From Microcaldota archaeon (GTDB lineage: Archaea; Micrarchaeota; Micrarchaeia; Micrarchaeales; Micrarchaeaceae): a stretch of DNA of 64,000 bases. The notes below the pieces were generated by a model, which was not told the origin of the DNA, did no database searches, and saw only the letters and a list, made by a program, of their open reading frames with translations. A program made the position numbers and the translations under genes. This document shows, piece after piece, positions 7,835 to 53,252 of the stretch (within the stretch, counting starts at the first letter, position 1; every line of letters starts with the position of its first letter). The stretch is taken from assembly GCA_021816895.1 (NCBI GenBank), contig JAKAWW010000001.1:248001-312000 (forward strand). The letters are read 5' to 3'.

Positions 7835-10690
7835 GAGAAGTTTGCGTTTTAGGCGTTAGTAATGGTATGCCCGCAGATCGTTGCCTCTCTGCATATACAC
7901 CCATCCTATCAAAGCCATATATTATGGCCGCCCTAGTGCCTCGTTTCGGGTACAGCTTCGTCCTTAGATGCTTTCAGGACTTATCCGTTTGGCGCGTGGC
8001 TACCCAGCAGTGCATTCACAACTGGTACACTAGAGGCGCCGATCCCCTGTTCCTCTCGTATTGAGGGGGTCTTATCCTCTGGCACTAACACTCCCAGTAG
8101 ATATTACCGTACTGTCTCGCGACGTACTGAACTCAGCTCGTGTAGGTTTTTAATGGACGAGCAGTCCAACCCTTGGCCGCTTGTGCACGGCCAGGATAAC
8201 CTAAGCCCATATCGATGTATCAAACCGCCGGGTCGATGGGGACTCTCACCGGCGACGAATCGGTTACCTCCAGAGTAACTTGTTTGACAGCATGGAGCCC
8301 CATTAAAAGGGCTTCCACAGTTCCCTAAGCCCCCGTTTCCGGTCTGCATGCCACGCTTTTCGACATACAGTCAGCCCTGCATTTGCCTTTTTGCTTGACG
8401 GTAGTTTCCCAAGCTACCTAAGCAGAGCATTGGTCACTTTCGTTTCCTTATCGAAAGCAACCGCCCAGTCTAACTACCCACCTGCAGCTGTCCTTGTTCA
8501 GTTAGCTGAAATGCGAATCAAGAGTGGTGTTACATTGTCGCTCCGCCTGTCCCGAAGAACAGGCCTCGACGCTTCCACTTACGCTATGCGTGACCCACAT
8601 TCCAACAACCACAGGCTGTAGTCAAGCTTCATGGAGACTTCATTTCCCACTGAGAGATCGCGGCATATTCACCGCGCAGTAAGTTCACCGGATCGGATGT
8701 TGGGACAGCGGGACAATCGTTACGCCCTTCATGCAAGTCACCTATTAAGTGACGAGGTATTACGCTACCTCAAGAGAGTCAGAGTTACTCCCGCTCTTTG
8801 CCAGCGCTTCTTCCCCTTGAAAAGGGCTTTCACGTACTGGCGGTGAGCAGGCGTCACCCACTGTACTAAGCCTTTCGGCTTTGCGGTGAGTTGTGTTTTT
8901 GGTAAACAGTCGTTGTCCCCTAGTCAGTGACATCTGCATATCCTATACGCAGACATGGCTTCTCGTTACCTTACGCCACCATTTTGCCGATTTCCCTAAC
9001 ATCCGTTAGCTCCGTCACACCTTGGCCTTTTCAGCCAGCAGCACCTTTACTAGTTCTAGGTACGGGCTGGGATGATCGCTGCAGATTCCCTTTTCACTGG
9101 CTCAGGAATTCAGTCCATTAGTTCATTTAGCTGCTTCTCCTCATAACGAGACTCCACAGCCCTTTGCACTTTCTTGCGGACCTATCCCCAAGCGTCAGAA
9201 ATCTGCCTTGTGTTGCCACACCTACATCCCAGGGGCTGGAATATTGACCAGCTTCCCTTTTGGTGGGGAGTTATTGGCACCCACCTTAGGATCGCCTAAA
9301 TCTCCGCTGACGAGCGTTGCGAAGAAACCCGTGTGCTTCCGGTGTATGGGATTCTTACCCATATTTGCTGTTACTAATACCAGGATTTTCTCAACGGCAC
9401 GGTCCACATGTCCTCTCGGACATGCTTCTAGCCGTGCCACACGCCCTCTTACCTGTCTCTCGACACTGGGGTATCGGTACCTAGTTTAGCCCCGTATATC
9501 TTGGGCAAAAAGAACCTCAACTGGTACGCTATTACGCGTTTTTTGAAGGATGGCTGCTTCTGAGCCTACCTCCCAGCTGTCTAAGATTCTCTCTGCCTTC
9601 AGAACACTTAACTAGGATTTCGGGACCTTAGCCCCAGTCACCGTCTTTGCGGTCTCGCGAGGCTAGCTTACCCAGCCCCGCCGACTCCCGGGATCTACGC
9701 AGCATACGCATTCGGAGTTTGACAGTTTGATGGAACCTTTCGGAACCTTTTCAAACAATCGGTAGCTCTACCGCGTATGCAAGCTCCCCCAGGGCTATCC
9801 TAAAGATACTTCAGAGGGGACCCGCTATTGCCATGTTCGAATGGTATATCGCCGCTACCCGCAACTCACCCAACAGGACATGCCATGACAGGTTGCGGAC
9901 CTCCACCAGGCGTTAGCCTAGCTTCGTCCTAGTCGCGCGTAGTTCACAATGGCTTCGGGTCGAATAAGAGTGACTTGGGCATTTTCATACCTCGCGCCTC
10001 ATTGCTTGCGCGCTCTCGCTTTCGCTGCGCCTTTCGGCTCGCCACTCCTATGCACTCCCTGGCTCTTGCTTCAAGAAGAATGGCAAGACACTGCTCCATG
10101 CCCTTCGCTAAGCCCTCTCAAGCTTCGCTTCAGGGCACTTCATTCCTTCCGCGCCTTGCCTTCATGTCACCACCTAGTTTCAGATCTTTTCAATCCCACG
10201 CGTGTGGGTTCTTTTCAGCTTTCGCTCGCGCTACTTGTACGCTATCGGTCTATAGCCAATATTTAGGGTTGGGGTTTAATGCCCCCATATTCGCTCTGCA
10301 TACCTAAGCAGAGCTACTCTCTTGCAGCTTCTCCATCGCACTTAACCTACGAGGCTGTCACTCTCTGTGGCCGCGCTTTCCAGCGCGTTCGGCTCATGTT
10401 CTGGATGAATCACTGCACCACATCTCCACGCCTTTTGCAAAGCAGGATTCGGTACGCCCTCTGCGGCTTTCATTCGCATTACTCGCCGCATCGCTCTCGC
10501 TTTCTTCTCCTGCGGGTACTAAGATATTTCAGTTCCCCGCGTATGTATGCACGCTTGCGCATGCACAATTCGGCAATCCCGGGTTCAAAACCTGACTTGC
10601 GGCTACCCCGGGCTTATCGCAGCTTGCCACGGCCTTCATCACTGCTATAGCCAAGCCATCCCCTAGGTGGTTTGTATTAGCAAACTTCTC
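7835..10690 (-). rRNA. 23S ribosomal RNA (divergent, unlinked)
   Basis: Read on the minus strand, conserved blocks occur in the right order: GAACTGAAATATCTTAGTA near 10530, GACTGGGGCTAAGGTCCCG near 9640, GAGGTAGCGTAATACCTC near 8760, and the sarcin-ricin loop at 8051-8066. The gene ends pair: GTGGGAGAAGTTTGC at 10680-10694 with GCAAACTTCTCTCAC at 7831-7845, the helix-1/processing stem, which sets the approximate ends. The length of about 2.86 kb leaves no room for a large intron. Many normally invariant domain V and VI bases differ, at least one with compensation. No 16S, tRNA or 5S lies beside it. Confidence 0.95.
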
Positions 10691-12162: not shown

Positions 12163-12274
12163 GGGCTCGTGGCTCAGTAGTAGAGCGTCCGCTTTGCAAG
12201 TAAGCTTCTTGAAAAGAAGCTTAAGCAAGAACCAAAAAAGCGGAAGGTCGCGGGTGCGATCCCCGCCGAGTCCA
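12163..12274 (+). tRNA. tRNA-Ala(TGC) with a 40-base intron
   Basis: The acceptor stem GGGCTCG/CGAGTCC with A73, D arm GCTC/GAGC, anticodon loop TTTGCAA and T arm CGGGT-GCGATC-CCCG all fold. Anticodon TGC is at 12195-12197. The anticodon stem TCCGC/GCGGA is interrupted at the canonical 37/38 site by 12199-12238. The intron has a perfect 10-bp hairpin (TAAGCTTCTT/AAGAAGCTTA, loop GAA) followed by GCAAGAACC. The GCAA can pair with TTGC of the anticodon loop as a bulge-helix-bulge core, but the 3' side is not a canonical three-base bulge. CCA is not encoded. Confidence 0.93.
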
Positions 12275-12309
12275 TAAAACTTCTTGGGAAGAAGTTTTAT
12301 CAAGAAACC
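12274..12309 (+). repeat. Hairpin related to the tRNA introns, directly after tRNA-Ala
   Basis: ATAAAACTTCTT (12274-12285) and AAGAAGTTTTAT (12289-12300) pair perfectly over 12 bp with loop GGG and are followed by CAAGAAACC. This is the same layout as the introns of tRNA-Ala and tRNA-Thr, with compensating stem changes. It may serve as a terminator, or be a third copy of an intron-like element. Confidence 0.6.
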
Positions 12310-12454
12310 GAGGGAAATTTTTGCTGCAAGCCTGCAAGCGGGTCTGGGTGCGCAAGCCTGTTGAAATACGCAGAGCATTACTGATTCTAAACTGTTTAAT
12401 GCAACTTATTTATAAATAAATACGTTTACTAAGTCAAATTAAATATGTGATTGA

Positions 12455-12592
12455 ATGAAAGATCCTGTATGTCAGATGGAAGTTGACAAGAATTCGAAAT
12501 TCAAGAGCGACTATAAGGGCAAGACATTCTACTTCTGCTCCGCGTCTTGCAAGCAGAAGTTTGACAATGAGCCAGAAAATTACGCCAAATGA
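12455..12592 (+). CDS. Small YHS-domain metal-binding protein, 45 aa
   Basis: The frame reads MKDPVCQMEVDKNSKF, then YKGKTFYFCSASCKQKF: a complete YHS domain with the DPVCxM and YFCSxxC cysteines. YHS domains bind soft or transition metals. It lies 123 bases before the P-type ATPase gene, whose own N-terminus is a second YHS domain of the same type. It may deliver metal to that pump. An AT-rich TATA-like stretch lies at 12410-12445. Confidence 0.8.
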   Translation: MKDPVCQMEVDKNSKFKSDYKGKTFYFCSASCKQKFDNEPENYAK

Positions 12593-12715: not shown

Positions 12716-14788
12716 ATGGCTACCGATCCTGTATGCGGGATGTTTGTAGATGAGAAGACATCCGCACTTACAGGAGAGCGAGAAGGTAAAAAGTATTATT
12801 TCTGCAGTGCGACATGCAAATTGCAATTTGAGAAGCCAGAGCGCGAGCTTAAAAACCTGAAGATCTCCTTGGCCATTTCATGGCCATTGACCATTGCTGT
12901 AGTGATTTTGACCTACCTCGTGTCGTATAGCTATAGCGACTACGTGATGCTGGTTCTTGCAGGCATAGTGCAATTCTATGCCGGCTGGAGGTTCTATGCG
13001 GGCACTATCGATGCTGTCAAGAATAAGTCAGCAAATATGGATACGCTCATAGCAATAGGCACAACGGCAGCATGGGTTTACAGCGCAGCAGTAACCATAC
13101 TGCCTTCTCTTTTCCCTACTAGGGGCGTCTATTTTGATACGTCAACCATAATCATATCGTTAATACTCACCGGAACGTACATGCAGAGAATCGCAGAGGC
13201 GAGGGCGTCTAACGCGGTTTCTGCGCTTGTGGCTTTGCAGCCCAAGGTGGGTCATGTAATAAAAGGCAACCAGACCGTAGATGTTGCAATAGAAAATATC
13301 AAAATAGGCGACATCCTTCTGGTAAAGCCCGGAGAGAAGATACCTACTGATTCGGTAGTATTGGTGGGCGAGAGTTCGGTTGATGAATCGCTGATTACCG
13401 GCGAAAGCATGCCCATCACCAAGAGGGCCGGAGACAGAGTCATAGGCGGCACCGTAAATTCTGCAAGTTCACTAAGGGTCAAGGCTACGAAGGTAGGCGA
13501 AGATACCGCGCTTGCACAGATAATAAGGATAGTCCAAGATGCAGCTTCAAGCAAGGTTCCAATACAGAAGCTTGCCGATAAGGTTTCATCATATTTTGTG
13601 CCCATAGTGGTGCTCGTGGGCATTTTGGCATCCCTATCATGGTACTTTTTTGGAGGCGTGGGCTTAAACACCGCAATCCTAATATTTGTCAGCGTTCTGA
13701 TAATCGCATGCCCCTGCGCTCTTGGGATAGCTACACCGGCTGCATTGCTGGTTTCATCTGGCAGAGCGGCAAAAGCGGGAATACTCGTCAAGAGCGGTGA
13801 AAGCCTGCAAAAGGCAAGCAAAGTTACTACAATTGTGCTGGATAAGACTGGTACGCTTACGAAGGGAAAGCCAGAAGTAACTGATATAGTTGCAGCTGCC
13901 GGCTATGATGAAATAAAGGTTCTAAGGCTTGCTGCAACAGCAGAGATGAATTCAGAGCACGTCATAGGCAAAGCCATTGTCTCGAAGGCGCAGAGCATGA
14001 AGATCAAGGGCGAATTCCCAAAGAAGTTTACTTACATTCAAGGCAGCGGGGTAATCGCATTTGCCAAGAGCGGCGAGAAAATAACTGTTGGCAACAGGGA
14101 CCTGTTTGAAAGCGCGCAGCTTTCAGGCCTTGAAGCAAAGCTGCAAGAACTTGAATCGGAAGGCAAAACAGCGCTCATAATAGGAAAAGATGAAAAGGCA
14201 ATCGGCCTTATAGCAATAGCAGACGCACTCAAAGATGATAGCAAGAAGGCTATAGATTCGTTCAAGAATGCAGGTTACAGCGTATGGCTTGCGACAGGAG
14301 ACAACCCAAAGGTCGCCAATGCAGTCGCAAAGAGCTTGGGCATAGAGCACGTGATATCTCAGGCAAAGCCCAAGGACAAGCTGGATAAGATAGCAGATCT
14401 GCAAAATGAAGGCAATGTTGTCGCCATGATTGGCGACGGCGTTAATGATGCGCCGGCATTGACAAAGGCAGACGTTGGCATAGCTATAGGCGCGGGCACA
14501 GATGTTGCAATACAGGCTGGCGGCATTGTCCTGATAAGGAACAGCATCTACGATGCGTTCGCGGCCCTCCAGCTCGGGAAGAGAACCATGTCGAAGATAA
14601 GGCAGAATCTTTTCTGGGCGTTCGGCTACAATATAATACTGATCCCAATTGCGGCAGGCGCGCTAATACCATTTTTCACAATAAGCGTTTACAGTTATCT
14701 GCCTGTGCTTGCGGCGTTTGCTATGGCTTTCAGCTCTGTCACTGTCGTCTCTAACTCATTGCTTTTGGCGAGATTCAAAGAAGAATGA
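12716..14788 (+). CDS. Heavy-metal (copper-type) P1B ATPase with N-terminal YHS domain
   Basis: 690 residues. Residues 1-42 are a YHS domain (DPVCGMFVD, then YYFCSATC) instead of the usual HMA domain. Transmembrane helices follow, then the actuator motif TGES, the metal-site motif CPC (IACPCALG), the phosphorylation motif DKTGTLT and the hinge [11 protein letters not shown] and the YHS domain suggest export of copper, silver or a similar ion; the direction is inferred. The nucleotide-domain HP dipeptide normally written SEHP reads SEHVIG here, an unusual substitution. The preceding 45-aa YHS gene is a likely partner. Confidence 0.93.
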
Positions 14789-53144: not shown

Positions 53145-53252
53145 AGCCCTGAGAGGGGATTGAACCCTCGACCTCCTGTTTTCCTGCTCTTGCTTAAGCT
53201 TCTTTTAGAAGCTTATTACAAGACAGGCGCTCTACCACTGAGCTACCAGGGC
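53145..53252 (-). tRNA. tRNA-Thr(TGT) with a 36-base intron
   Basis: On the minus strand: acceptor GCCCTGG/TCAGGGC with U73, D arm GCTC/GAGC, anticodon stem CCTGT/ACAGG, anticodon TGT at 53218-53220, T arm GAGGG/CCCTC. The intron at 37/38 spans 53181-53216 and contains a perfect 9-bp hairpin (TAAGCTTCT/AGAAGCTTA, loop AAA) then AGCAAGAGCAGG. It is clearly related to the tRNA-Ala intron. Its 3' end is the source of the repeats scattered to the left. CCA is not encoded. Confidence 0.93.

Follow-up and report, generated by a model that had tools for sequence, protein, structure and literature searches.

The locus behind the tRNA-Ala(UGC) gene of this micrarchaeal genome raises the question of why two tRNA introns and a hairpin outside any tRNA body share one layout. 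The features concerned, all in the window (the whole 64,000-nucleotide stretch of DNA analyzed here), are collected in Table 1. The initial annotation had placed both introns at 37/38, with a common stem-loop layout followed by AGCAAGA, and this was confirmed from the sequence and from Rfam matches: the stem is TAAGCTTCTT-GAA-AAGAAGCTTA in the tRNA-Ala intron and TAAGCTTCT-AAA-AGAAGCTTA in the tRNA-Thr intron, with AGCAAGA following each. The third unit was likewise found directly behind tRNA-Ala as described, as a perfect 12-bp stem with the loop GGG followed by CAAGAAACC; the outermost base of this stem is the discriminator base A73 of the tRNA. The tRNA-Thr hairpin pattern matched once in the window, compared with 0.11 matches expected in shuffled sequence (up to three mismatches allowed). 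By hand, UUUG (32-35) of tRNA-Ala could be paired with CAAA ahead of the 3' bulge AA/A38, and CUUG (32-35) of tRNA-Thr with CAGG; in their position and in the bulge-helix-bulge (BHB) motif at their exon-intron junctions, both are thus archaeal tRNA introns of the BHB type. Because of the introns, ARAGORN reported no tRNA at its default settings.

Table 1. Features of the tRNA-Ala and tRNA-Thr loci, in positions of the window
Feature	Position	Strand	Basis or remark
tRNA-Ala(UGC) gene with intron, attachment-type tRNA	12163..12274	+	Rfam RF00005, 54.7 bits; relatives
tRNA-Ala(UGC) intron at 37/38, 40 nt	12199..12238	+	
Repeat module in tRNA-Ala intron: AAGCTTCTT GAA AAGAAGCTT AAG C AAGAA C	12202..12232	+	Covariance model R1; copy belonged to its training set
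int(C) integrase remnant ESIKLLGKKFYQETEGNFCCKPASGSGC, open frame to 12381	12268..12351	+	Translation; block shared with L045, L055, and L057
Repeat module directly 3' of tRNA-Ala (third unit): AAACTTCTT GGG AAGAAGTTT TAT C AAGAA A	12277..12307	+	Full stem 12274-12300
Mirror tail CAAGAA of third unit	12301..12306	+	Mirror rule
tRNA-Thr(UGU) gene with intron	53145..53252	-	Rfam RF00005, 59.1 bits
tRNA-Thr(UGU) intron at 37/38, 36 nt	53181..53216	-	
Repeat module in tRNA-Thr intron, 8-bp form: AAGCTTCT AAA AGAAGCTT AAG C AAGAG C	53186..53214	-	

The genome that contains the window (G000), assembled as one contig of 928,770 bases, yielded 37 tRNA matches. Three more of its introns (Thr-CGU, Phe-GAA, and Ile-GAU) have the same layout, with three of the four central BHB pairs as read by hand, making the module common to five introns of this genome. 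The layout was absent from several of its other introns (those of Met, Tyr, Thr-GGU, and some Leu tRNAs), and four tRNA loci (L034, L035, L036, and L037) carry T-loop introns that lack the module and were missed by ARAGORN. The module spans approximately 31 nt and consists of a perfect hairpin, R-A-R-C-Y5, a three-base loop, and R5-G-Y-T-Y, followed by N-A-N-C-R5. Using a covariance model built from 13 copies, it was detected in 34 of 60 relatives, with 38 copies in one of them (G036), and, at the level of the phylum, in 85 of 245 genomes. An exact-pattern scan of 84,980 species returned 81 stretches. Nearly all lie in DPANN records, chiefly of Micrarchaeota but also of Aenigmatarchaeota, Nanoarchaeota, Pacearchaeota, and Diapherotrites, with some labelled Marsarchaeota. 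Among the few matches elsewhere, one (L293) contains the tRNA-Ala attachment sequence and its record looks misbinned, and another (L285), inside a coding gene, apparently matches by chance. The compensated stem changes reported initially proved real across the family: in a gap-free alignment of 46 distinct copies, 96.7% of the stem cells were paired, with 70 double changes, and none of 500 shuffles scored as high. The claim of the initial annotation, one family in several tRNAs with a relative outside any tRNA body, was right.

The tail that follows the hairpin obeys a second rule. After N-A-N-C it is the complement of the 5' arm read in parallel, or the 3' arm read backwards, such that CTTCTT arms go with CAAGAA, CTCTTT with CAGAAA, and CCTTTT with CGAAAA. 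This mirror rule was followed by 108 of 141 copies not chosen by pattern, compared with a maximum of 60 in 5,000 permutations, and of 70 copies whose arms are asymmetric, 53 fit the parallel version and 1 the antiparallel one. In the alignment of 46 copies, from which about 10 opposite-strand readings of the same hairpins had been removed by hand beforehand (a step that slightly favours the tail), four parallel arm-tail positions showed 30 double changes, as high a score being reached in 0 of 500 shuffles; the antiparallel version scored below every shuffle. As predicted beforehand, CTCTTT arms were followed by the tail CAGAAA 24 times, in 17 of 245 genomes and 15 genera, whereas the antiparallel tail CAAAGA followed them in none of the 245. 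On these three results, antiparallel pairing of the tail, or a pseudoknot, was rejected. We know of no copying process that yields a mirror image, and the tail therefore likely reflects a structural constraint. On one strand, the module presents a 5' pyrimidine arm, a purine arm, and a 3' purine third strand, the order that defines class II of intrastrand triplexes (PMC4666352). The third strand would lie antiparallel to the purine arm (A.A-T and G.G-C triplets), as the T-A/C-G correspondence parallel to the 5' arm indicates. As judged from the sequence, one strand could fold as a hairpin with the third strand in its groove, a purine-motif triplex; the opposite strand gives a pyrimidine motif. 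The clear mirror run amounts to four or five triplets, position 24 covarying only partly with pair 3, and the published search rule for a class II triplex stem is at least six triplets (PMC4666352).

Copies of the module were found in a range of settings. In tRNA genes, it lies in 37/38 introns (of Ala, Thr, Phe, Ile, Gly, Arg, and other tRNAs), in T-loop introns of tRNA-Arg, and behind tRNA-Ala; Micrarchaeum A_DKE carries it inside a tRNA-Thr intron (L290). Since copies also lie behind the 16S rRNA 3' end, at stop codons, and in frame in prepilin-type genes, as well as in integrase genes, the intron is one of several settings. The complete genes that end at a module, with names assigned by inspection, include those for uS11, eL37, uS5, ribonucleotide reductase, RpoB'', and thiolase. 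In the A+T-rich genome G036, arrays of several different mirror-tailed hairpins stand behind stop codons (L154-L173 and L201-L208). The prepilin copies (L182-L185, L233, L265, L276, L386, L388, L391, and L392) lie shortly upstream of QSAMEYLMTYG, use two frames, and are flanked by duplicated KSQSA/QSAME codons. Coding constraint on the peptide KLLGKKFYQE was rejected as the origin of the repeat, because L233, L265, and L276 use the other frame and the tRNA copies are untranslated. A T5 run about 18 bases past the stem in the window might suggest that the hairpins are ordinary transcription terminators, or arose by chance in A+T-rich DNA; however, sequence and tail are conserved across phyla, the two tails differ 24 to 0, most copies have no T-run, and some lie within tRNA or protein genes. 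This explanation is refuted for the family taken as a whole and hardly credible, and the initial suggestion that the element ends transcripts finds no support in its simple form, as the copies in tRNA and protein genes need read-through.

What, then, is the third unit? The initial annotation had offered it as a step in intron movement, and this part of the proposal found no support. In a DNA search of the 60 relatives, the unit recurred behind tRNA-Ala in many genomes, beside intron-bearing tRNA-Ala genes (L045, L048, and L052) as well as intronless ones (L051, L054, L055, and L057). The window's copy is nearer to the Phe intron of its own genome than to the adjacent Ala intron, and nearer, too, to the Ala intron of a relative, G048 (30 of 31 bases); at that locus (L045) intron module and third unit differ at one of 31 bases. 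Behind tRNA-Ala in the relatives, the module opens the int(C) part of an SSV-type tyrosine integrase targeting tRNA-Ala. A second conserved block, GCAAGCGGGTCTGGGTGCG, lies exactly 59 nt on in the window, L045, L055, L057, and L062 (counted by hand) and encodes ASGSGC, in a frame that leaves the tRNA and runs into a tyrosine recombinase (Pfam Phage_integrase, PF00589). In L057 the frame, before it is lost, extends from the tRNA across the module and into the catalytic domain, and L281 provides a possible start (MNAESIKLL). The window retains 28 int(C) codons before diverging. Because the int(C) frame runs from the tRNA 3' end into a recombinase in the SSV-type arrangement, as seen in the relatives, the third unit is part of an attachment-site scar; read from these frames, it is an attachment-site remnant carrying the repeat and not an intron in transit. 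Inspection of the copies found no conserved BHB flank pairing, at most UCC/GGA in some. A structured RNA behind tRNA-Ala was ruled out by the int(C) frames and PF00589. A spliced BHB intron in the integrase mRNA was considered because 59 nt, not being a multiple of three, breaks one frame, and was rejected because the alternative frame ESIKLLGKKFYQE..ASGSGC is open and a conserved BHB is absent. Farther downstream in the window, a small ORF (12458-12590) has, by eye, a TRASH/YHS-like metal-binding motif and precedes a P-type ATPase-like ORF (12716-14788).

These findings bear on two explanations that involve movement into tRNA genes. Introns might spread among tRNAs by reverse splicing or transposition, with the copy behind tRNA-Ala as an intermediate. 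The similar introns in Ala, Thr, Phe, Ile, Gly, Arg, and other tRNAs are consistent with this, as is the precedent in Thermoproteales (Fujishima 2010, as cited in PMC4090602), but only the 31-nt module is shared, the intron 3' ends differ and each fits its own exon, the third unit is part of an integrase gene and is also found beside intronless tRNA-Ala, and neither G000 nor G036 has a reverse transcriptase; we regard such spreading as very improbable. Alternatively, tRNA introns could have entered with the attP sites of integrating elements that carried the repeat, as has been proposed for Caldiarchaeum tRNA-Thr (PMC3293823). The repeat does lie inside int(C) beside the tRNA-Ala attachment site, and a hybrid locus (L078, G036:C2) joins a tRNA-Ala 3' end, the module, and a tRNA-Thr 3' half with its intron end, suggesting recombination at the hairpin. 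We nevertheless consider this origin quite unlikely, since no integrase accompanies the copies at stop codons, at 16S ends, and in prepilin genes, and members of the same integrase family that target other tRNAs, such as Glu, Val, and Leu, and leave them at the 3' end lack the module. This SSV-type family is large in Micrarchaeota (L094-L123 in the 60 relatives; up to nine matches per genome, in G018), with int(C) reading on in frame from many different tRNAs at their 3' ends; the window's genome holds a copy with one in-frame TGA (G000:C1:37585-38355, L106). In the viral contigs searched, both the integrase and the repeat pattern were absent.

The module also has a preferred orientation. It was in sense orientation in 52 tRNA introns and antisense in 1 (L228), and sense to antisense counts were 21 to 0 at tRNA-Ala ends and 4 to 0 at 16S ends, although the G036 copies and the tRNA-Ala copies are each internally non-independent. 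Among ORFs of at least 80 codons, 24 stop codons lay near the module start compared with 4 at the reverse position; since 8 to 10 of the 24 come from G036, these are not 24 independent events. This bias raises the possibility of a functional RNA boundary element, in which a triple-stranded knob at the transcript level would mark or protect RNA ends or guide an endonuclease (at the tRNA 5' exon, at the 3' ends of tRNA-Ala and 16S rRNA, and between cistrons) and would repeatedly have been made into tRNA introns. Most settings are indeed places where RNA is cut or ends, complete genes end at the module, and uS5 has one both in an Aenigmatarchaeota record (L244) and in a Micrarchaeota genome (L175). 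However, the idea does not sit well with the in-frame copies in prepilin and integrase genes, it is in DNA and not in RNA that purine-motif triplexes are established, and the module is lost or decayed at orthologous sites within one genus and, behind 16S, in many genera. At the latter site, some genera have the full module, others a degenerate hairpin, and the rest none, as in the window's own genome (L304). We therefore hold a boundary element to be unlikely, if less so than either route of movement above. The window's 23S rRNA gene (7837-10688, minus strand) has no adjacent 16S; the 16S 3' end lies at about 780,600 of G000:C1.

Orthologous genes were compared within genus g14. Three stop codons that carry a module in G036 have none in G013, G137, and G223; at uS5, G013 has a module, G137 has it doubled, and G036 lacks it; and behind one RNA polymerase gene, G013 and G223 have a module in decay. 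As read from draft genomes, which limit claims of presence or absence, the module was thus gained and lost between close relatives, tandem doubling included. Collectively, we think it probable, with moderate confidence, that a short dispersed repeat of DPANN archaea is present here in three copies, in each of the two introns and as the third unit, the last having come with an integrating element. We infer the function and the mode of movement of this repeat as follows. Its purine tail, mirroring the 3' arm, would give a hairpin plus a third strand in the groove, and the repeat would be gained, duplicated, and lost along genomes. Transcribed copies would persist where they are harmless, because they are spliced out as tRNA introns, lie just outside the mature RNA or reading frame, or are read in frame as a harmless lysine-rich peptide (KLLGKKFYQE); capture as an intron may occur when the flanks allow a BHB motif to form. 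Of the window's three copies, one is the core of the tRNA-Ala intron and another that of the tRNA-Thr intron, and the third would have arrived with the int(C) end of an SSV-type element whose attachment site was the 3' part of tRNA-Ala and whose remainder has decayed. The mirror rule and the sense bias are not obviously expected of a pure junk repeat and weigh against this account, and the recurrent placement exactly at stop codons and before QSAMEY in prepilin genes may point to site choice or a function. Copy number does not follow the presence of any transposase or reverse transcriptase: in G036, where copies are most numerous, neither a Y1 transposase nor a reverse transcriptase (RVT_1) was found, so both were rejected as movers there, and RVT_1 occurred in 5 of the 60 genomes, G000 not among them.

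The repeat was unreported in the open, nonsubscription literature searched, that on DPANN tRNA introns and Micrarchaeota integrases included. The same small repeat forms the core of tRNA introns and occurs outside them across several DPANN lineages, which bears on the origin of archaeal tRNA introns; because it occurs in both places, intron origin becomes testable by comparing sites with and without it, and the mirror rule provides a strict sequence criterion for locating more copies. REP/BIME-type palindromic repeats are short hairpins behind stop codons that form tandem arrays. The DPANN module resembles them in these respects, as in G036, but differs in its sense bias and mirror tail; with no Y1 transposase in G036 it is not of the IS200/IS605-REP kind, nor, with no RVT_1 in G000 or G036, a retro-mobile intron. 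As in Thermoproteales, for which similar introns in different tRNAs at canonical and noncanonical positions are described (Fujishima 2010, as cited in PMC4090602), similar introns occur here across tRNAs and at both kinds of position; unlike those introns, as that citing account presents them, only a 31-nt core is shared and copies also lie outside tRNAs, and the account has no mention of a mirror tail. In Caldiarchaeum, gain of a tRNA-Thr intron through an integrating element has been proposed, the whole intron coming with attP (PMC3293823). There, as here, a tRNA gene, an intron, and a tyrosine-type integrase meet at one locus, but at the tRNA-Ala locus the repeat lies in int(C) behind the tRNA instead of a whole intron arriving with attP. 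In the SSV-type arrangement, integration into a tRNA gene splits int, with int(C) leaving the tRNA 3' end (PMC3293823). The micrarchaeal family shares the split gene and its reading direction, yet it targets many tRNAs, and its tRNA-Ala types hold the repeat in the N-terminal coding part.

The closest likeness in build is to the TM_ECO/PIT repeats, class II purine-motif intrastrand triplex repeats (Holder 2015, PMC4666352; Hoyne et al. cited there). Both are short dispersed repeats with a pyrimidine arm, loop, purine arm, linker, and purine third strand on one strand, and both have unstable sites and copy numbers that vary between close relatives. TM_ECO has a G/C-rich 37-nt consensus, is always intergenic, and shows no strand bias (PMC4666352), whereas the DPANN module is A/T-rich, varies its arms by covariation, is mostly transcript-sense, forms tRNA introns, touches the ends of RNAs and reading frames, and sits inside genes; its clear triplex run is also shorter than in the known bacterial triplex repeats. 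The repeat is therefore built like these bacterial repeats yet falls outside the TM_ECO definition in composition, intergenic position, and strand bias, and it adds an archaeal, transcript-sense group to triplex-type repeats.
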